Source: Candidatus Fermentithermobacillaceae bacterium
GTDB taxonomy: Bacteria > Bacillota > Sulfobacillia > Fermentithermobacillales > DUSS01
Direction of reading: 5' to 3'
DNA length: 64,000 bases
Assembly (NCBI GenBank): GCA_020725645.1
Contig: DYEQ01000034.1
Coordinates: 1-64,000, forward strand
Part shown: piece after piece, positions 11,889 to 35,653 of the stretch
Position numbering within the stretch: the first letter of the stretch is position 1
How the letters are laid out: each line of letters opens with the position of its first letter
The notes under the pieces: generated by a model
The model's input: the letters and a program-made list of their open reading frames with translations, nothing else
What the model was told of the DNA's origin: nothing
Database searches by the model: none
Made by a program: the position numbers and the translations under genes

Positions 11889-12588
11889 GGGAGCCACCAT
11901 CTCCCCAATCCAACCACTCTCGATCAACCACAGATTCCCTCGGGTCAACCCCTTCGAGACCGCAATGTTTCACCAGAAATTCGAGAACCCATGCGGGCCT
12001 CACCGTTCTCCCTTCGAAATGTCTCAAAACAATCCTCAATGCAGGAGGAGCGGAGGTCACCACCTCAATCCGGCGCACGAAGAGTTTGAGGTCTATCTGG
12101 CGATTCTTTTCCCGCGTGTCATGAGACTCGCGCGTTTCACGCGCCTGTTCCCGCGCCTCACGGTGGAACTTCGCTTCATCCTTGCCGAGGAAACACTCCA
12201 GGGCTCGTTTCAAAGGGGCGTCTTCAGCTCCGTACACCAGTACGCGATAAGTCGAAGCTGTTATTCTCGTCTCCAGTGTTGACTCGTCCGGGGAAATCCT
12301 CCAGACCTCCTTCAACTTGAAACCCGGCGGCATCGCTTCCCCCAGCGAACGTCCCAGATCCTCGAGGGACCTGCTTTCTGATAGATATACGTCGGCCACC
12401 TCGTTGAGGCCCGCTGTGCCTACGGGAAGCGGCGCCACCATCTCCACCTTCGGCCTGGGAGTATAACCCTTTGTCATCGCCACCGGCCATCCGGCGCGGG
12501 CCAAAGCCATCACCAGTGCCCTCCTGACTTCGAGGTGACCCAGAAACCGCTGTTCATCTCCTTTTTCGTACCTGATTCTCACCCTCAT
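11878..12588 (-). CDS. TIGR03936/DUF2344 family radical-SAM-associated protein
   Basis: MRVRIRYEKGDEQRFLGHLEVRRALVMALARAGWPVAMTKGYTPRPKVEMVAPLPVG; ATGA-type overlap with the upstream radical SAM gene. Confidence 0.9.
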   Translation of the reverse strand: MRVRIRYEKGDEQRFLGHLEVRRALVMALARAGWPVAMTKGYTPRPKVEMVAPLPVGTAGLNEVADVYLSESRSLEDLGRSLGEAMPPGFKLKEVWRISPDESTLETRITASTYRVLVYGAEDAPLKRALECFLGKDEAKFHREAREQARETRESHDTREKNRQIDLKLFVRRIEVVTSAPPALRIVLRHFEGRTVRPAWVLEFLVKHCGLEGVDPRESVVDREWLDWGDGGSHGS

Positions 12589-14600
12589 CGCGCCCGGTCT
12601 CCCGCCCCTTTCGAGGTGCCATCCCTCCCGGCTAAGACGGGGGCGACCCCGAATCGCGGACATACTCCACAACCGGGGCACGGGGCTTCCCTGCAATCCG
12701 GAGTCTTTTCCGCCCGCCGCGCCCTCGCCCTTTCCAGAAGCAGGAATCCTTTCGTGACTCCCGGGTCCAGGTGATCCCAGGGTAGGATCTCATCCTGTCC
12801 TCGCTCGCGAGTGTAAAAACCCGGCTCGAGAGAAGCTTCTTTCATGCACGACAGCCAAAGGTCGAGGTCAAGCATATCGGGCCAGGAATCAAACCTGGCA
12901 CCCCGGCGGTACGCGTGGTAAACGACGCGCCCGAGACGCCTGTCTCCCCTGGACAGGATAGCTTCGAGGTACGTTTGCCTCGAATCGTGGTACCGAAACT
13001 CGAGCCCCGGACCCCGAAGGTGTTTGGCGAGGAGCGACTGCCGCCGTTCGATTTCGTCCCGCCCGACAAAGGGTTCCCATTGAAACGCCGTGTGAGACTT
13101 GGGAACGAATCCAGATACGGACACAGCGATCGTGGGCTTCGTCCCCATATCACGTCCGAGCTGCCGTATGCGGTACGCCAGGTCGGCGATGGCCAGGACA
13201 TCTTGGTCGGTTTCGCCGGGAAGCCCGATCATGAAATAAAGCTTGATCCTGGTAAATCCCCATGAAAAGGCCGCCTTCGCAGCGTCCATAACGTCTTCTT
13301 CCGTCACGTTCTTATTGATGACGTCCCTCATCCGTTGGGAGCCCGCTTCGGGCGCCAAAGTCAGCCCTCCCCCCAGAAGCTTGGAGAGCTCCACGGAAAA
13401 TGAATCTACCCTCAGCGAAGGCAACGACACCCGAGCCGGGCAGGGGCTACGGGTGAGGACATCTTCGATGACCTCCCGTATAGGAAGGTAGTCAGCTGAC
13501 GAGAGGGAGACGAGGGAAACCTCATCGTAACCGGAAGCTGCGAGGATCTTCCGGGCTATCCGCGACACGGTTTCGGGTTTCCTTTCTCGAACAGGCCGGT
13601 ATAAGGTCCCCGCCTGACAGAACCTGCATCCCCTGGTACATCCTCTAAAGATCTCAACCATGGCCCTATCGTGTACCGGCTCGAGGAAAGGAACGACCGG
13701 TCGCTCAGGGTAGGGCGCCTTCTCGAGGTCACTGAATATCCGCCGGCGGACCCGCCCAGGTGCACCCGCTTTGGGGCGAACTTCTACCAGAAGCCCTTCA
13801 TCGCTGTGCTTTACATCGTAGAGGGACGGCACGTATACGCCTTCGATACCGGCGAGGCTCTCCAGAAGTTCCAGTCTGGGCCTTCGCGATGCCCTCCATT
13901 TCTTGTAGCAATCTACGATCTCCCCGGCGAGGTCCTCCCCGTCACCCAGGGCGAACGCATCGATGAACTCGGCCAGGGGTTCTGCCGCCATAGACACGGG
14001 ACCTCCTGCTATCACCAGGGGATCCCGTTCATCTCGTTCTGTGGAAAATAGTGGCAGCCCTCCGAGGTCCAAGGCAGCGAGGACGTTCGTGTACGTCAGC
14101 TCGTAGGCCAGCGAAAACCCGATTATATCAAAGGAATTCAACGGGGACCTCGATTCCAGCGTAAAGAGAGGCCAACCCCGCGCCCTGGACAGTTCCTCCA
14201 TATCGGGCCAGGGGGAATATGCCCGTTCGCAAGCGGTATCATCCCTGGAGTTCAACACATGGTAAATGATCTGCGAGCCGAGATGGCTCATGCCCACTTC
14301 GTAGACATCGGGAAAGACCAGAGCGAACCGGACGGAAACGGAAGACGGGTCCTTCCTCACTGCATTGAGTTCGCCCCCCGTGTACCGGGCCGGTTTCGTC
14401 ACTTTGTTTAGGTGCCTTCTCAGCTCTTTCCAGGAAACGATCTCTTCGTCGTGTTCTCTCAGTTGTCTCACAGAAGCTTTCCTTTTCAACGTCGTCCGGC
14501 GAGCTTTGTCGCTCGCCTTGACATGGTTGGACCGGTCACCATCCCTGCATTCTGGCCGGCAACGGCCGGGATAGCAGGCAATAGCCCAGGGTGATCGCAA
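12585..14600 (-). CDS. TIGR03960 family B12-binding-site radical SAM protein
   Basis: VEIFRGCTRGCRFCQAGTLYRPVRERKPE (CxxxCxxC) and family-wide similarity; N-terminal start uncertain. Confidence 0.92.
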   Translation of the reverse strand: MRSPWAIACYPGRCRPECRDGDRSNHVKASDKARRTTLKRKASVRQLREHDEEIVSWKELRRHLNKVTKPARYTGGELNAVRKDPSSVSVRFALVFPDVYEVGMSHLGSQIIYHVLNSRDDTACERAYSPWPDMEELSRARGWPLFTLESRSPLNSFDIIGFSLAYELTYTNVLAALDLGGLPLFSTERDERDPLVIAGGPVSMAAEPLAEFIDAFALGDGEDLAGEIVDCYKKWRASRRPRLELLESLAGIEGVYVPSLYDVKHSDEGLLVEVRPKAGAPGRVRRRIFSDLEKAPYPERPVVPFLEPVHDRAMVEIFRGCTRGCRFCQAGTLYRPVRERKPETVSRIARKILAASGYDEVSLVSLSSADYLPIREVIEDVLTRSPCPARVSLPSLRVDSFSVELSKLLGGGLTLAPEAGSQRMRDVINKNVTEEDVMDAAKAAFSWGFTRIKLYFMIGLPGETDQDVLAIADLAYRIRQLGRDMGTKPTIAVSVSGFVPKSHTAFQWEPFVGRDEIERRQSLLAKHLRGPGLEFRYHDSRQTYLEAILSRGDRRLGRVVYHAYRRGARFDSWPDMLDLDLWLSCMKEASLEPGFYTRERGQDEILPWDHLDPGVTKGFLLLERARARRAEKTPDCREAPCPGCGVCPRFGVAPVLAGRDGTSKGAGDRAR

Positions 14601-14760: not shown

Positions 14761-16440
14761 TCAGGCCGGAACCCGTACTGGCGCCGCCTTCCTTACGCTC
14801 TCGAGAATCCGGCCTATCCTCTCCTCCTCATCGATGGGTCTGCCGGTCGCGGGGTCAACGGCACGGCAGGAGCCCCCTACGATCCTCGTAACTACCACGC
14901 CTTTCGCCGCGGGATTGCCTCTCAATTGCGGAGCATCCATGATCCCCAGCTCAACGGATTTCGCCAGGGTGTGAGGATCGCTCCAAGGGTCCTCGACCCC
15001 GGAAGGAGCTATCTCTTTCAAAGCGTTCAGGATGACGCGGGACTCCTCCAAGAGTTCTTCCTTGCGCTCCTGCACGCGAGCATCCCGGGTCATATCGGGC
15101 ATTCCGTCAAGGCAGTTCCTGATCACTCCCCTAGCTATCTTCGCGCTTTCTATCACGTCCTCTGCGGTCGCGGCGTGATGCCCCTCACAGAAGCCCACCA
15201 CGTGAACGATGTGGGGCTTAAGGTTCATGCTAACTAGAGTCGAACTGCCAAGGTGCCCCTTGGCGAGCGCGAGATCCGCCGGGAAACTCGAAAGCCCAGC
15301 TCTGACCTGCTTCCAAATCCGGAAGTCGTCGTCCGCCAGCGCCTCGATGAGTTCGAGCTTGGCGAGCATCTTGCCGGTATCCATTACGGCGCTGGTCCCC
15401 GGCGGGGTGTTCCACATGAACTGCGCCACGTAGTCTCTAACGCCCGCCCGTTTGGCGTTATAGGCTGCAAGGAAAGCGGCGGCGACGGCCACCGAATCCG
15501 GGGCATCTCTCAAGCTCCAGTGGTGAGCTTCGTTCACCTCCACCGGGATGCCTCGTTCCGCATGCCATCTCATGGCGGCCTGAGCTTCGCGGATGGATTC
15601 CTCCACTCCGCGCGGGCCTCGTTTATCCAAAACGTTGTACCAGAACAGAGGTATCGCCGCCCATGCGTTGTTGATCGTCTCCTTCAAAAGCTCGGCGAAC
15701 CTGAGGACGTCTCTGGTCCCGCTGTAACAGCGCATGAGAGGGAAATTGCCGCAGCGCGAAGCCTCGTAGAGTCGCCGGAAGTCGCAGGCGGTTCTCACGG
15801 GGACACCCCCGGCTCCGTCTTGATCAGGGTCCATCTCCTCGGGGCGGAAGAAGCTTTCCTGGGCGTTTTGATCGGGTCCGAGGGATATCACGTCCAGGAC
15901 TCGAGCTTCAGATATCTTTCTCACCCCATCCACGGTGTCTTCCAGAGATGGCAAGCCGAAATGGTGTCTGATAAGCGGATAGGGCTCCTTCCAACGGATC
16001 CTCTCCACGAGAGAGGACGGGTAATCCCGCTCGTCCCGGGCGGTCTTTTGACCCTTCAGGTAAGCTACCACGTCATCGATATCCTCGAGCCCGGAAAAGA
16101 CGGCCTCGAATAGGCCGTTGGCTCGAGCAACCTCAGCGACGGGCGGCGTTCCGCCGAAAACGAGCCTGGGATGAAACCCGCTGGCATCCAGGGAAGCTTC
16201 GAGCCGCTCCAGAAGGCGCCGGGCGGGTCCCGGTGAAAGCCTGTATCCGATGGCCAAGATGTCTGGTTTGAGTTCCCGAGCTTTTTCCACGATTTCCTCG
16301 GGAGAAAGTGCCTGACCCAAAAGCACCGTCCTGTAGCCGCAGCTTTCCGCAAGCCGCAGGAAATTGAGGACACCGGCCAGGTGAATGCAGTCCCCCATGG
16401 ACGATGCTGCTATAAGAGGTTTGTCTTCCCTTATCGTCAT
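14761..16440 (-). CDS. Cobalamin B12-binding-domain protein with mutase-like C-terminal region (function unknown)
   Basis: N-terminal MGDCIHLAGVLNFLRLAESCGYRTVLLG...PRLVFGGTPPV B12-fold pattern; C-terminal region LMRCYSGTRDVLRFAELLKETINNAWAAIPLFWYN...EVNEAHHWSLRDAPDSVAVAAAFLAAYNAKRAG. Confidence 0.7.
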   Translation of the reverse strand: MTIREDKPLIAASSMGDCIHLAGVLNFLRLAESCGYRTVLLGQALSPEEIVEKARELKPDILAIGYRLSPGPARRLLERLEASLDASGFHPRLVFGGTPPVAEVARANGLFEAVFSGLEDIDDVVAYLKGQKTARDERDYPSSLVERIRWKEPYPLIRHHFGLPSLEDTVDGVRKISEARVLDVISLGPDQNAQESFFRPEEMDPDQDGAGGVPVRTACDFRRLYEASRCGNFPLMRCYSGTRDVLRFAELLKETINNAWAAIPLFWYNVLDKRGPRGVEESIREAQAAMRWHAERGIPVEVNEAHHWSLRDAPDSVAVAAAFLAAYNAKRAGVRDYVAQFMWNTPPGTSAVMDTGKMLAKLELIEALADDDFRIWKQVRAGLSSFPADLALAKGHLGSSTLVSMNLKPHIVHVVGFCEGHHAATAEDVIESAKIARGVIRNCLDGMPDMTRDARVQERKEELLEESRVILNALKEIAPSGVEDPWSDPHTLAKSVELGIMDAPQLRGNPAAKGVVVTRIVGGSCRAVDPATGRPIDEEERIGRILESVRKAAPVRVPA

Positions 16441-17570
16441 CGATTATCCCCTCCTTCCACGGCAAATCTCTGGATGTCCTCCACGCTCATGCGGGAGATC
16501 CCCATCTCCCGAGCTTTCCTTCCGGTTTTCCAGTAATCGACCCCGTGAAGACTGGAAGCGAGCTTGATGGCCGCCTCTATGACCGGTGTTTTCACGCGCG
16601 CGACTCGCGCAAGTGACACCAGTGGCACGAGGCTGTAGGGGACGTCTTCCCAAATGTACCTGGTATTCAGATCCGGGGGCGCTTTGATCCCTTCGTAAGC
16701 GTGATTTGCTTTAACTGCATCGACGATGGATCTTTCTTTGACTCCGTATGTTCTCTCCATCCACTCCAGGCACGATCTGGCCTGTACCCCGTAGGCCCGA
16801 GCGACTGCCAGCCTTTCCGCGTCAAGTGCCTCGAGAACCCTACCGACAGAGGGCGTTATGCCCTGCCTGTAGTGCTCGAACGCGCCTCCGGTATCCTCTA
16901 TCCTTCCCGCGTTCAAAATGGTGGGAAGGGGATGAAATATAGCACCTATGTTGTCGAAACTGGTGTAGAGACAGTTTTCCGCCGGAACGAATTGGGGATA
17001 AGCTTTCTTCACCGCCCTCAGAACTTCCATAGTCCTTGAAGACGGAAGCGCCGCCAGAGGGACTTTCTTCTTGATTCCATAAACGTGGCACCTTCCGGGT
17101 TCAAGGGCGCGGCTCGCGTAGATGAACGTGCTGGCTTCAGCCACTACCACGTCCCGGTCACAGCCCGCACGCACGAGCGCGTGCTTGAACTCAAACGCCC
17201 CGCCCGTCCGCCCCGGGTTGAGGACGACGATCTGGCCGTCGACCAGGTAAGGCGCCATTAAGCGCGCCACTTCCGCGTGGGCGGAAGCTGGCACCGTCAC
17301 CATGATCACCCTGGCCCCTGTGACGGCCATCTCCATCGAGGTGGTGACGAGCTCTGGCGAAGCGAATTCCCGTAGATGGCCTTCGAGCTGAATACCCCCG
17401 CGCCGGTTTATCCGCCGAACCTTCTCTTCGCTGCGGTTCCACAGGGAAACGACATATCCCTGAAGGGCGAGGTGGCCGGCCATAGCTTGCCCGCCGTTCC
17501 CTGCGCCGATCACGGCGAAATCTATGTGGGTCTCCTCTACACTAAGTAACCTTTCAGCCATTCTCAGCAC
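16437..17570 (-). CDS. NAD/NADP octopine/nopaline (opine) dehydrogenase family protein
   Basis: FAVIGAGNGGQAMAGHLALQGYVVSLWNRSEEKV Rossmann motif; Octopine_DH-like C-terminus (NCLYTSFDNIGAIFHPLPTILNAGRIEDTGG). Confidence 0.85.
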   Translation of the reverse strand: MLRMAERLLSVEETHIDFAVIGAGNGGQAMAGHLALQGYVVSLWNRSEEKVRRINRRGGIQLEGHLREFASPELVTTSMEMAVTGARVIMVTVPASAHAEVARLMAPYLVDGQIVVLNPGRTGGAFEFKHALVRAGCDRDVVVAEASTFIYASRALEPGRCHVYGIKKKVPLAALPSSRTMEVLRAVKKAYPQFVPAENCLYTSFDNIGAIFHPLPTILNAGRIEDTGGAFEHYRQGITPSVGRVLEALDAERLAVARAYGVQARSCLEWMERTYGVKERSIVDAVKANHAYEGIKAPPDLNTRYIWEDVPYSLVPLVSLARVARVKTPVIEAAIKLASSLHGVDYWKTGRKAREMGISRMSVEDIQRFAVEGGDNR

Positions 17571-18532
17571 CTCCTTTCGGTTTTCCTCTTGGTGGCGCAG
17601 TCCAGGATTTCCCCAACCAGCGTGGGGTAATCCATTCCCGCCTTCTCCGCTATCCGGGGAACCTCACTGTACCCGGGTTGGAGCCCGGGAAGGGTGTTTA
17701 CCTCGAGGACGTATGGTCTTCCGTCGTTGGAGAGCCGTATGTCCACCCTTCCAATGTCCCTGCACTTCAGGGCCTTGAAAGCCTGGATGGCGATGCTTTG
17801 GACCTCGTAGGCCACCTCCTCCGGAAGGTCCGCCGGGCAAACGGGAATCACGTGATCCCTCGACTTAACGGAATACGTGTACATGCCATCCTCGTGGAAG
17901 ATGATCTCTTCCACGGGAAGCGCCCGAACATCCGGGTAGCCCAAGAGAGCTACGGTGAACTCGCGCCCTTCCACGTACTCCTCCACCAGGATGGGTGGTT
18001 CGAAGACCTTCAGAAGCTCTCGGGCCAGTTCCAGCGCATCCTCGGGATCGTTCTTAACGCTGTCGCCGGTAATTCCGACGCTGGAACCCTCGCCGGACGG
18101 CTTAACTATCACCGGATACCGGAGGTCCTTTTTGAGGTCGTCGGCCTCGGTGTAGATGACGTCGAACTTCGGAGTGGGCACGTCCCGGGATAACCAGACC
18201 ATTTTGGCCAGGTGTTTTTCCAATCCTAGCATGTGCCCTACGGAACCTGAGCCTGTAAACGGAACGCCGAGAAATTCCAGCATGGCCGCAATGTGCCCCT
18301 GCTCCCGCTTGCTCGAGTATCCGGTGGCGATGTTGAATACGACGTCCGGCCCGAGATCTCCGAGAGCTTGCAACATATCCGGCCCGGCCCGTACCACTTC
18401 CACTTCGTGCCCGAGAGATTTCAGGGCCTGACTGACCGCTTCCAGGGTTTTTTCCCCCTGATAAAAGGCGTGAGGATCCGCCTGGTACATCCTGGCCCCG
18501 CGTTCAGGGCATGCCAATACCGAAACGCGCAA
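17564..18532 (-). CDS. D-alanine--D-alanine ligase-like ATP-grasp protein
   Basis: ATP-grasp motifs (YPVIVKPSGEGSSVGI; LVEEYVEGREFTVALLG; VLEVNTLPGLQPGYSEVPRIAEKAGMDY); TTG start preceded by GAGGAGGTGG. Confidence 0.88.
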   Translation of the reverse strand: MRVSVLACPERGARMYQADPHAFYQGEKTLEAVSQALKSLGHEVEVVRAGPDMLQALGDLGPDVVFNIATGYSSKREQGHIAAMLEFLGVPFTGSGSVGHMLGLEKHLAKMVWLSRDVPTPKFDVIYTEADDLKKDLRYPVIVKPSGEGSSVGITGDSVKNDPEDALELARELLKVFEPPILVEEYVEGREFTVALLGYPDVRALPVEEIIFHEDGMYTYSVKSRDHVIPVCPADLPEEVAYEVQSIAIQAFKALKCRDIGRVDIRLSNDGRPYVLEVNTLPGLQPGYSEVPRIAEKAGMDYPTLVGEILDCATKRKTERRC

Positions 18533-18583
18533 CGTACCACCTCCTCTTCGCGGTAGTTGCCGTCAAAGAAGGGAAAACAGAAA

Positions 18584-18601
18584 GACCCGAGAAAACGGGT
18601 C
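18584..18601 (-). terminator. Intrinsic terminator in the leader (riboswitch expression platform)
   Basis: Minus strand GACCCG TTTTCT CGGGTC followed by TTTCTGTTTT. Confidence 0.75.
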
Positions 18602-18654
18602 CGAGACACAAGCCGCTTCTCCAGCCAGCGAAGATAGTGACAGCTGGAGTGACG

Positions 18655-18800
18655 GCCGGGGTCCGTCTCCCTTTCCCACGCTTACGAGGTTAGCTGACGG
18701 GCTCGGACCGGAAGGGTCTGGCCCTACCCGCTTTCGCGGGATTAGCCCCGAAATTCTTGGGTCCCCCGTTCCCCGGAAACCCGGGGATTCAGCGCTCAGA
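18655..18800 (-). ncRNA. Cyclic di-AMP (ydaO/yuaA) riboswitch aptamer
   Basis: Minus strand GGGGGACCCAAGAATTTCGGGGCTAATCCCGCGAAAGCGGGTAGGGCCAGACCCTTCCGGTCCGAGCCCGTCAGCTAACCTCGTAAGCGTGGG carries the GGGGACCCA / CCCGTCAGCTAACCTCGTAAGCG hallmarks of the ydaO class (matched from memory). Confidence 0.92.
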
Positions 18801-18822
18801 CGGCTTTTGGTTTTGTGGTTCC

Positions 18823-18852
18823 ATTATATATGGACTTTTTCCAATAGGTCAA
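18823..18852 (-). promoter_or_regulatory. Sigma-A-like promoter for the riboswitch leader
   Basis: Minus strand TTGACC (18847-18852), 18-bp spacer, TATAAT (18823-18828), just upstream of the aptamer. Confidence 0.75.
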
Positions 18853-18862
18853 TATCGGGATT

Positions 18863-19771
18863 CTACACAGGTTCCTGTAATAGGGAGTCAAGGCGCCGGA
18901 GGATCTCCCCCTTGTAGTAAGCTTTTAGAATATCCCCCTCGGTCAACTTCCCCAACTCCCGGAGTTTCCCGTTGACCACCGTTATTATATGATACCTTGC
19001 AGGCCGGAACCTTAGAACGACGTCCCTCACGCGGAGGTCACCACGGCAGACGAGTTGTTCCACCCGGAGTATCCCCCGTTTGCCGAGCTCTTCCTGCCGG
19101 GTAAGGAGCTTTGCGACCGAGTGGAAGCTGGAATTGTCCCGCTCAGCCAGAGCTCCCCACGTCACGATGACGCCGAGAATTCCCACCGGGTCGTAGGGAT
19201 TCCCAGTGAAAAACCTCATCACTCCGTAAATCATCATACCGAGACCCGCTACCACCCCCAGGTTCGAAGCTATGCGCGAAGCTTGAAGATAGCCGGTCTG
19301 CAGAGAAAGCCAGGCCCGGAGTATCCTTCCGCCGTCCAAGGGGAGGCAGGGAAGAAGGTTGACTGCGGCCATGGCCAGGTTGGTCCGGACGAGGAGCTCG
19401 AGCAACGGGAAACTCATGCCCGGGTAAAGTTTCGGAAGGATCGTGCGTTGGATGAGCCAGCTTGCCGCTGCCATCAGTATGTTTTGGCCGGGACCAGCGG
19501 AGGCGATCAGGACCTCGGCGCGGGGTTCGAGCTGCCAAGCTCGTTCGAGCTTGGCGACAGCTCCGAAGGGCCACAAGTGAACGCTTTTCACCGTCGCTCC
19601 CTCGATAGAAGCTTTCAAGAGGTGTCCCCCTTCGTGGAGGAGAAGGCTTGACAGGAGAACCAGGAACTCGAGACCGTAGCCGCTTACGAAGGAGATTCCC
19701 GCGACTGCGATCAAAGTTGGATGCAGGTATATGCCGGTGCTGCCCAACCGGCCGAGGCGGATACCCGACAC
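18863..19771 (-). CDS. Site-2 protease family M50 metallopeptidase (SpoIVFB-like)
   Basis: LLLHEGGHLLKA (HExxH variant HEGGH) and LLPCLPLDGGRILRAWL (NxxPxxxxDGG-type motif). Confidence 0.9.
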   Translation of the reverse strand: MSGIRLGRLGSTGIYLHPTLIAVAGISFVSGYGLEFLVLLSSLLLHEGGHLLKASIEGATVKSVHLWPFGAVAKLERAWQLEPRAEVLIASAGPGQNILMAAASWLIQRTILPKLYPGMSFPLLELLVRTNLAMAAVNLLPCLPLDGGRILRAWLSLQTGYLQASRIASNLGVVAGLGMMIYGVMRFFTGNPYDPVGILGVIVTWGALAERDNSSFHSVAKLLTRQEELGKRGILRVEQLVCRGDLRVRDVVLRFRPARYHIITVVNGKLRELGKLTEGDILKAYYKGEILRRLDSLLQEPV

Positions 19772-19775
19772 TTGT

Positions 19776-20486
19776 TCATGGCCCTTTCCCCTGCGGAGGC
19801 AGTACCGTCATGGGATCTATCTCGACACCGTCCTTTCTCACCTCGAAATGGAGGTGAGGTGTTCCGGCCTCGCCGGTGTCGCCGACGTTCCCGATGCGGT
19901 CGCCCCTGGCGAGCCTCTGGTTTTCCTTAACGACCGCGGTGTCGAGGTGAGCGTAAAGGGTAGAAAGTCCGCCCCCGTGGTCCACCTCCACGACGAGACC
20001 GAACTCGGGAGACTCTCTTACGCTGACCACCACCCCCGGTAGAACCGCGTAAACCGGGGTCCCCTTGGGTGCCGCTATGTCGATCCCCTTGTGCAAGATC
20101 ATCCCCGGACCGGTCTGATTTGGCTGCCACCCGAATAACGATGTGACCTCTCCCTGCGCCGGCCAGGCCAGAGTCATCCCCTCCATACCGGCGTGCCTTC
20201 TCCAGAAGACGGTTATGTCCAGGTTACTCCATCTTAAGGAGGCCAGCTTGTCGGGGGCCTGTCTTAACCATACCAGAGCTTCATCCAGTGTGAGGTCGTG
20301 GTCCACCGCGTATCTCGAGGCCGCGAGGATCTGGGCGGAGAGCCCCGCAGGAGAACTGCCCGCGCCCCAGAGAAGGGCGAATATGAACAGGGCAGCTAGA
20401 GTTTGACGAACCCAGGTTGGAACGGATACCTGGTTCTCTTCCGGCGAAACGCTTTTCGTTTTCTCTCTCCAGCTCATAGCTACCAC
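19776..20486 (-). CDS. M23 family peptidase (SpoIVFA-like)
   Basis: TSLFGWQPNQTGPGMILHKGIDIAAPKGTPVYAVLPGVVVSVRES...VEVDHGGGLSTLYAHL...GTPHLHFEVRKDG; upstream of M50 gene. Confidence 0.88.
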   Translation of the reverse strand: MVAMSWREKTKSVSPEENQVSVPTWVRQTLAALFIFALLWGAGSSPAGLSAQILAASRYAVDHDLTLDEALVWLRQAPDKLASLRWSNLDITVFWRRHAGMEGMTLAWPAQGEVTSLFGWQPNQTGPGMILHKGIDIAAPKGTPVYAVLPGVVVSVRESPEFGLVVEVDHGGGLSTLYAHLDTAVVKENQRLARGDRIGNVGDTGEAGTPHLHFEVRKDGVEIDPMTVLPPQGKGP

Positions 20487-33880: not shown

Positions 33881-35653
33881 TCAGGAAGCTACCAGGGCAT
33901 CCATGGCGGTCATCCACTCCCGTACCGCGCGCCTCCGCACTTCCGGGTTTTCTGGCATCCTAATGGGCCTTCCCCGGCCATCCAGCACTATCCCGCAGTA
34001 CCCACCTCGGAGGCGGGCCTTCACGCTTACGCCCGGCCCTGCTCCGGCATCGAATTTCTTTTGAGGAACGATCTCGGTTTCGAGGATTTCGCCGGGTTCC
34101 AGCGGAATCCGTTGGATCCCGCCGGAGAAGATACGGACCGTCTTACCGCCCACGGTCAACTCAGCGATCACCGTACCGTCTGCCACCGGCGGACCCTTCG
34201 GAGCTATAACAGTTCCGAGGGGCACTAAAGCGATGTTGAAGAGAATATCCCGGGCGGCATCCGGAACTGTCTTGAGGAACATGCCCACGTGAGGAAAGAG
34301 GAAGTCCCGGTCCATGTATATCTCAGTAACTCCTCCAGGCTCAAGACCGTCGTTGAGCATCATCATCGCCTGCCCGTACCTGGGAGCGTACGAGATAGCT
34401 CCCCCCGTTCCGACGACGGCACCCACTTTCGACATGTCCAGCTTGACCTCACCGGTCCCCGTTTGATTGAATATGTCGCTTATTTCCCTCTTCTTCTGAA
34501 TACCCTTCAAGCCCCGGGCGAGAGAGCGATGGTGCTCCAGGGACAACCTCAAAGCTTCCCTGCACAAAGCCTGCTCCAGCATGAGGTCGACGGCGGTCTG
34601 GGGCAGGGTTGTGGGCCGGATCATCTTGTTGAAGTTCCAATCCCTCAACTCTCTCTCGGTGATATCTGCGGGAACCCACCGTAGGACGTTGTCGGGACGG
34701 GCCTCGACCATCACGTTGCCCATGCTGTACGACATCCCGAGGTTAGCTGAAACGGTCCTGTAAAACTCCCCGTTCAGTACGGAAAAGACGTCGGTGGTAG
34801 CTCCTCCCACATCTACCCCCAGCACTCCCGAACCGAGCGTGGTCCGGAGGTATTTCAACACTTCGCCCACGGCGACGGGGGTGGGTGAGATCCTGTCACC
34901 CGCCCAGGTCAGGAGAGTCTCGTAGCCGGGGGCATGCGACATAACGTGGTCCAGAAATAACCTATGGATTTCGGCAATACACGGCTCCAGCACTTCGTGT
35001 TCGAGGTCGGGTCGCAGATTATCGGTGAAGGTGACATCCATGATGTCGGACATGACGTCGTTTACGTACTCCCGGGCGGATACGTTTCCCGCGAACACGA
35101 CGGGGACCTTAAATCCTTGTCCGAAACGGGGCCTCGGGTTAGCTGCTGCGACGAACTCGGCGACCGCTGCGACGCTCGAGATGTTCCCTCCGTCCGTCCC
35201 CCCCGTGATGAGGATCATGTCGGGCCGGAGCTTCCGTATCCGCTCTATCTTCTCCGATACCATCCGCGCGTCATCCATGGCAATGACATCCAGGACCACC
35301 GCGCCCGCACCCAGCGCAGCCCTGTGAGCTGATTCCGCGGTGAGGTGTTTGGCGAGGCCCGCGACGAGCATTTGGAGACCGCCGCCCGCGGACGAAGTCG
35401 CCACGAACAAATCGACTCCTTCCGGTCCCGCCGAGGGTGAAAGAAGCCTCCCGGCTTCCAGGAGATTGAGAGCTGTCCTGGATTCGAGCCTTCCCAGAGC
35501 CTTCCTCACCCCGATCATTACGTCTAAATGAGGCGCCTCGACGGTAGTGGGCGCAGTAGCTTTTCCTTTCATTTCCCAACCAGAAGAGCTTCTTTCAAAA
35601 ACCGTAGCCTTTGTCGTAGTGCTTCCCACGTCCACCGCCAGGATGCGTTGCAC
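33881..35653 (-). CDS. MutL/GlmL-like ASKHA-fold ATPase (glutamate mutase L family, copy A)
   Basis: MQRILAVDVGSTTTKATVFE phosphate-1 motif; ILITGGTDGGNISSVAAVAEFVAAANPRP; GVLGVDVGGATTDVFSV. Confidence 0.88.
   Translation of the reverse strand: MQRILAVDVGSTTTKATVFERSSSGWEMKGKATAPTTVEAPHLDVMIGVRKALGRLESRTALNLLEAGRLLSPSAGPEGVDLFVATSSAGGGLQMLVAGLAKHLTAESAHRAALGAGAVVLDVIAMDDARMVSEKIERIRKLRPDMILITGGTDGGNISSVAAVAEFVAAANPRPRFGQGFKVPVVFAGNVSAREYVNDVMSDIMDVTFTDNLRPDLEHEVLEPCIAEIHRLFLDHVMSHAPGYETLLTWAGDRISPTPVAVGEVLKYLRTTLGSGVLGVDVGGATTDVFSVLNGEFYRTVSANLGMSYSMGNVMVEARPDNVLRWVPADITERELRDWNFNKMIRPTTLPQTAVDLMLEQALCREALRLSLEHHRSLARGLKGIQKKREISDIFNQTGTGEVKLDMSKVGAVVGTGGAISYAPRYGQAMMMLNDGLEPGGVTEIYMDRDFLFPHVGMFLKTVPDAARDILFNIALVPLGTVIAPKGPPVADGTVIAELTVGGKTVRIFSGGIQRIPLEPGEILETEIVPQKKFDAGAGPGVSVKARLRGGYCGIVLDGRGRPIRMPENPEVRRRAVREWMTAMDALVAS

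Follow-up and report, generated by a model that had tools for sequence, protein, structure and literature searches.

A c-di-AMP riboswitch precedes an operon with a conserved pair of opine dehydrogenase and glutamate-mutase-like B12 enzyme genes

N-acetylglutaminylglutamine amide (NAGGN) is an amino-acid-derived osmolyte that is finished by an AsnB-like amide synthetase. The regulon of cyclic di-adenosine monophosphate (c-di-AMP) comprises K+ and amino-acid transporters, cell-wall remodelling and osmotic shock genes, and wall hydrolases in particular are often placed under c-di-AMP riboswitches (PMC7266159, PMC3766115 for the regulon; PMC7266159 for the hydrolases). Here we describe an operon of a Candidatus Fermentithermobacillaceae bacterium (assembly GCA_020725645.1, contig DYEQ01000034.1) that was found within a stretch of 64,000 nucleotides, hereafter the window. 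Its leader resembles other riboswitches of the ydaO/yuaA class (RF00379) in its full-length aptamer, downstream intrinsic terminator and 5′ position, whereas its genes differ from the transporter and wall-hydrolase targets listed in reviews (PMC7266159, PMC3766115). They encode an ATP-grasp ligase, an opine dehydrogenase and a B12-binding protein, the latter two forming a pair that recurs across many genomes. In our evenly balanced judgement, the operon would encode a pathway that is switched OFF by c-di-AMP and whose opine-type product is probably a compatible solute.

The riboswitch leader and the operon

The original prediction had placed a promoter, a ydaO-class aptamer and a terminator ahead of three minus-strand genes, and an Rfam scan together with motif scans confirmed this arrangement. 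The c-di-AMP riboswitch aptamer (18664..18804, minus strand) matched the Rfam ydaO-yuaA model over its full length (model positions 1–134), scoring 89.7 bits where the gathering score is 38 (E 1.1e-19); this was the sole Rfam match within the window. A sigma-70-type promoter, TTGACC-N18-TATAAT, lies 5′ of the aptamer (18823..18852, minus strand; 11 of 12 matches, 0.2 expected in shuffled sequences). Between the aptamer and the first gene we located an intrinsic terminator as predicted expression platform (18583..18602, minus strand, read from 18602 to 18583), consisting of GGACCCG-TTTTCT-CGGGTCT and TTCTGTTTTC. Since shuffled sequences yield 0.8 terminators where one was found, it is weak evidence taken alone. 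Given this terminator and the known behaviour of the class, the riboswitch would turn the operon OFF at high c-di-AMP. The window's own genome encodes a diadenylate cyclase. It also holds a second ydaO riboswitch (G000:C88:28975-29110, locus L002), located directly 5′ of a gene for a secreted SleB-like cell-wall hydrolase, a usual target type of c-di-AMP riboswitches.

Three intact open reading frames follow 3′ of the leader, all on the minus strand. They encode a Ddl-like ATP-grasp ligase (17564..18532; 322 amino acids, TTG start; PF07478, 147.6 bits), an Octopine_DH-like opine dehydrogenase (16437..17561; 374 amino acids, ATG start; PF02317, 171 bits against a cut-off of 30) and a fused protein of B12-binding domain and MutE-like TIM barrel (14761..16440; 559 amino acids, motif CxHxxG; weak PF02310 and PF06368 matches). 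The latter two genes overlap by 4 bp (ATGA), as originally noted. A 7-bp overlap had been proposed for the former two, which needs a start at the GTG at 17570. This GTG falls within the Shine-Dalgarno sequence GGAGGTG belonging to the ATG at 17561; the dehydrogenase gene is therefore best started at that ATG, which leaves a 2-nt gap to the ligase gene.

The conserved pair and its enzymes

In a scan of GTDB contigs we found 431 relatives of the B12 protein, of which the best-scoring 80 were taken as loci (L053-L132). A dehydrogenase gene lies directly upstream of the B12 gene in 78 of these 80 loci (exceptions L069 and L071), being partial or split in L063 and L086. The hosts are mostly Bacillota, with Desantisbacteria and Armatimonadota in addition; host groups include Ca. 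Fermentithermobacillaceae (with window relatives at 94 and 91%), Thermoanaerobacter, Caldanaerobacter, Thermosediminibacter, Halanaerobiales, Symbiobacterium, Tissierellia, Desantisbacteria, Armatimonadetes and others. Among 299 sampled genomes of the phylum, 62 contain the B12 protein (strong matches in 58). A close dehydrogenase homologue was detected in 53 of the 58 strong-B12 genomes and in 54 overall (Fisher P = 9e-52, a statistic that ignores shared ancestry). By a strict test, 48 of 54 pairs are adjacent, and so are 3 more in which the B12 domain matched as a separate piece. Judged from these neighbourhoods, the conserved unit is the opine dehydrogenase and B12 enzyme pair. The trio of the original prediction was rejected as such a unit: co-occurrence elsewhere holds for the pair, whereas an ATP-grasp ligase gene joins the operon in the same orientation in 20 of the 80 loci and is thus an optional member.

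Ten of the relatives' leaders served to build a covariance model, which was run over the 80 loci (1.22 Mb). It placed a riboswitch in 47 loci, always just 5′ of the operon and on the same strand, and none elsewhere in the 1.22 Mb; of the 72 loci having at least 600 bp of upstream sequence, 46 carry it. Terminators between aptamer and first gene occur in 32 of the 47 riboswitch-bearing loci, against 4.8 expected from shuffles. Mapped onto the B12-protein tree, presence of the riboswitch requires 10 changes versus 24.4 for shuffled labels; it is therefore clustered, yet spread over distant branches. When 33 whole genomes whose loci had missed a leader-model match were searched with RF00379, 14 contained a ydaO riboswitch, not all of them placed relative to the operon. 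A cmscan of four loci without a leader-model match detected no riboswitch near the operon.

The dehydrogenase is of the type of N-(1-D-carboxylethyl)-L-norvaline dehydrogenase (CENDH), which is its best solved relative (PDB 1bg6, matched over the whole length, E 6.7e-88). Its invariant H210, R301 and D306 align with H202, R292 and D297 of 1bg6 (numbering from the alignment), which are the catalytic His, Arg and Asp. In contrast to CENDH, the gene is set beside a B12 mutase and a c-di-AMP switch.

The AlphaFold2 model of the B12 protein (predicted local distance difference test 92.3, predicted template modelling (TM) score 0.85) places a Rossmann domain ahead of an eight-stranded barrel. Foldseek ranked glutamate mutase at the top (6h9e, E 2.2e-18, and 1cb7; TM 0.57-0.66, 17% identity), followed by ornithine 4,5-aminomutase, lysine 5,6-aminomutase (3kp1, 9q1a) and methylmalonyl-CoA mutase. 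The protein therefore belongs to the adenosylcobalamin (AdoCbl) isomerase fold. With glutamate (methylaspartate) mutase MutS/MutE it shares the B12 Rossmann domain, the TIM barrel and equivalents of R66 and E330, but it is a single fused chain with the B12 domain first. Its cobalamin motif differs as well: the main family has CxHxxG...[YF]RL...GG, compared with DxHxxG...SxL...GG in glutamate mutase, and across 48 sequences Cys18 is invariant, with His20 kept. As for the aminomutases, the B12 domain can be aligned to its counterpart in the ornithine enzyme, but the family is without the invariant pyridoxal phosphate lysine in this domain, and it forms a compact single chain with no second subunit.

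MutE aligns weakly in a global profile alignment, and the following residue matches come partly from the strand order of the model and from reading by eye. The counterparts of MutE R66 and E330 are R158 and E419, respectively, which are invariant in the B12 family; D190 occupies the R100 position, there is no acidic residue around the E171 region, and the counterpart of R149 is uncertain (R237 or Y239). R66, R100, R149 and E171 are the glutamate-binding residues of glutamate mutase. Because of the D190 substitution and the missing acidic residue, the B12 enzyme is unlikely to use glutamate. An ordinary glutamate mutase was rejected on the site residues and on the PF06368 score, which is about 27 bits (26.5 for the window protein at a cut-off of 26.6, up to 30.6 in relatives) where true MutE proteins reach up to 780.

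In two other genomes, distant homologues of the B12 enzyme (35-36% identity) form one chain with MutL, the accessory protein of glutamate mutase (L157:443-5383, 1214 amino acids; L158:2306-7339, 1233 amino acids), which supports AdoCbl radical chemistry of the B12 enzyme. Each fusion gene stands behind an Octopine_DH gene from a different subfamily, and the still more distant L159 and L160 (split) also follow Octopine_DH-type genes. The dehydrogenase-mutase pairing is therefore probably older than the riboswitch-bearing families. Fourteen sequences including the distant homologues have H20, R158, H160, R237, Y239, D272, R274, E301, N303, H306, R311, D315 and E419 in common, and L159, the most distant one, reads DAHTLG, that is, the canonical DxHxxG. 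The two MutL fusions and their Octopine_DH genes represent a second subfamily of the pair.

Separate MutL homologues were found in 12 of 13 operon-bearing genomes, one of them in the window. This GlmL/MutL family protein (33881-35653, minus strand; 372.6 bits) is encoded beside FtsX/LolD-type ATP-binding cassette transporter genes and an RnfC_N-domain gene, and two further MutL homologues lie across or just past the window end (C108:63008-68302). No recognised mutase gene adjoins the MutL homologues of the window region.

Optional ligases and other neighbours

The ATP-grasp ligase gene lies 5′ of the pair in Fermentithermobacillaceae, L088, L102, L114 and L120, and 3′ of it in L075, L093 and L131. 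In 8 of the 80 loci, an AsnB-like (asparagine-synthase-like) gene follows the pair in place of the ATP-grasp gene, and either ligase partner is present in 28 loci on several unrelated branches. Some of the AsnB-like proteins have lost the glutaminase Cys (L081:8703-10205 in Caldanaerobacter, L108:5293-6624, L109:10746-12167 and L086:8824-10461) and show Ala, Ile, Ser or a degenerate sequence instead, as in lactam- and amide-forming relatives; it is intact in those of L083, L097, L098 and L103. Two kinds of ATP-dependent carboxylate-amine ligase were recruited independently, which suggests amide-bond formation in some of the lineages. An AsnB-like finishing step is what the operon would have in common with the NAGGN pathway; the enzymes differ, and the AsnB-like proteins of the operon score under the NAGGN model cut-off.

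The window ligase shares the ATP-grasp fold and the Mg/ATP residues with Ddl, but differs in the D-alanine-site residues. Compared with the true ddl product of L079, it has T70 and S224 at the D-alanine-site His and Tyr (His63 and Tyr216 in E. coli DdlB numbering); by these site residues it is not a D-Ala-D-Ala ligase. It scored below the NCBIfam Ddl cut-offs (216.5 versus 243 and 177.9 versus 245.65), and another Ddl is encoded elsewhere in the genome (225.7 bits). On these grounds, we rejected a role as housekeeping Ddl.

Further neighbours of the pair (Lgt, thioesterase, NFACT, V-ATPase, lipoprotein acyltransferase, DUF2229) were clade-bound only and were rejected as conserved operon members. 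A DUF2229 and CoA-activase-like gene pair lies directly 3′ of the dehydrogenase-mutase pair at L066:8771-10917 and L126:3941-6024. In the Desantisbacteria locus L094 (8614-10286), a CBS-domain gene and a Na+/H+ antiporter gene overlap the end of the mutase gene. Within the window, the operon adjoins a gene for a TIGR03960 B12-binding radical S-adenosylmethionine protein that is unrelated to the mutase (12585-14600, minus strand; 750 bits). On its 5′ side are site-2-protease-like and M23-peptidase genes, arranged like SpoIVFB/SpoIVFA (18863-20486, minus strand).

The putative product and competing explanations

From these enzymes we infer a candidate pathway, including its substrates and the order of its reactions. 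At low c-di-AMP, under osmotic or K+ limitation, the aptamer would be unliganded, the terminator avoided and the operon transcribed; at high c-di-AMP, it would be shut. The opine dehydrogenase would couple an amino compound reductively with a 2-keto acid to yield an N-(carboxyalkyl) amino acid, and the AdoCbl radical mutase of glutamate-mutase fold would rearrange either this opine or the amino acid that serves as its precursor. In some genomes, an ATP-grasp or AsnB-like ligase, the latter often without working glutaminase, would then form an amide bond, and the end product would probably be a compatible solute. This last step is argued from the c-di-AMP regulon, the amide-forming partners and the few ion-transport neighbours such as those in L094. 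A more specific version, possible but rather improbable, involves a new AdoCbl reaction: the mutase would act on the opine made by its partner, before an amide or lactam synthetase closes the product. As an example, the mutase may convert an N-(1-carboxyalkyl) amino acid into the N-(2-carboxyalkyl) form.

Several points weigh against a c-di-AMP-controlled osmolyte pathway. The riboswitch is absent upstream in 26 of the 72 loci with full upstream sequence, and control by c-di-AMP is therefore not universal. The 80 loci, being the best-scoring of 431, over-represent close kin. Ion-transport neighbours are few and clade-bound, and the osmolyte role would follow from the usual c-di-AMP regulon and the amide-forming partners, not from chemistry.

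The original prediction had named either an osmolyte or a wall precursor as product. For the wall, the operon would make or modify a cell-envelope precursor, an opine-type or unusual amino acid of peptidoglycan or of a wall polymer, which the Ddl-like enzyme adds to a dipeptide. That c-di-AMP riboswitches often control wall hydrolases (PMC7266159), as in the window's own genome, agrees with this idea, as do the Ddl-like nature of the ligase and a diaminopimelate epimerase homologue after the pair in L115. However, most operons are without ligase and without a nearby Mur-type gene, the window ligase is without the D-alanine-site residues, and the genome has its separate Ddl, so that we find little support for a wall precursor and consider it unlikely. 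We think it just as unlikely that the two enzymes serve a catabolic or fermentative pathway which breaks down an opine or amino acid, as glutamate mutase does in glutamate fermentation. Most hosts are anaerobic Bacillota, MutL homologues are present, and glutamate mutase and aminomutases are catabolic in anaerobes; but the neighbours of the pair in the 80 loci include no recurrent transporter, lyase, CoA or ammonia-lyase genes, the recurrent ATP-consuming ligases point to synthesis, and OFF control by c-di-AMP would be unusual for catabolism.

Staphylopine-type metallophores are made by opine dehydrogenases, and a metallophore or other secreted secondary metabolite of this kind could accordingly be proposed. 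We regard this as very improbable: the dehydrogenase is of the PF02317/CENDH type with its full-length match to 1bg6, the 80 loci show no recurrent gene for a metal transporter, an exporter or a nicotianamine-synthase-like protein, and the predicted control runs via c-di-AMP rather than metal. The compatible solute thus remains our preferred product, at the strength given above.

A literature search found nothing on this operon, and the gene lists of Block 2010 and Nelson 2013 fall outside it. Within the literature searched, this agrees with the original prediction, whose author knew of no described pathway with such a trio. The pathway and the mutase branch are apparently undescribed, whereas the riboswitch class and the enzyme superfamilies are already known. 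With its unusual cobalamin motif and rebuilt active site, the B12 protein points to a new branch of glutamate-mutase-like B12 enzymes. The hosts include cultured and named bacteria (Thermoanaerobacter wiegelii, Caldanaerobacter subterraneus, Thermosediminibacter, Fervidicola), and the product can therefore be sought directly. Our analysis suggests that the c-di-AMP signal would also control the synthesis of an uncharacterised metabolite; if the more specific version with the new AdoCbl reaction is true, anaerobic bacteria would have a new class of compatible solute under c-di-AMP control.

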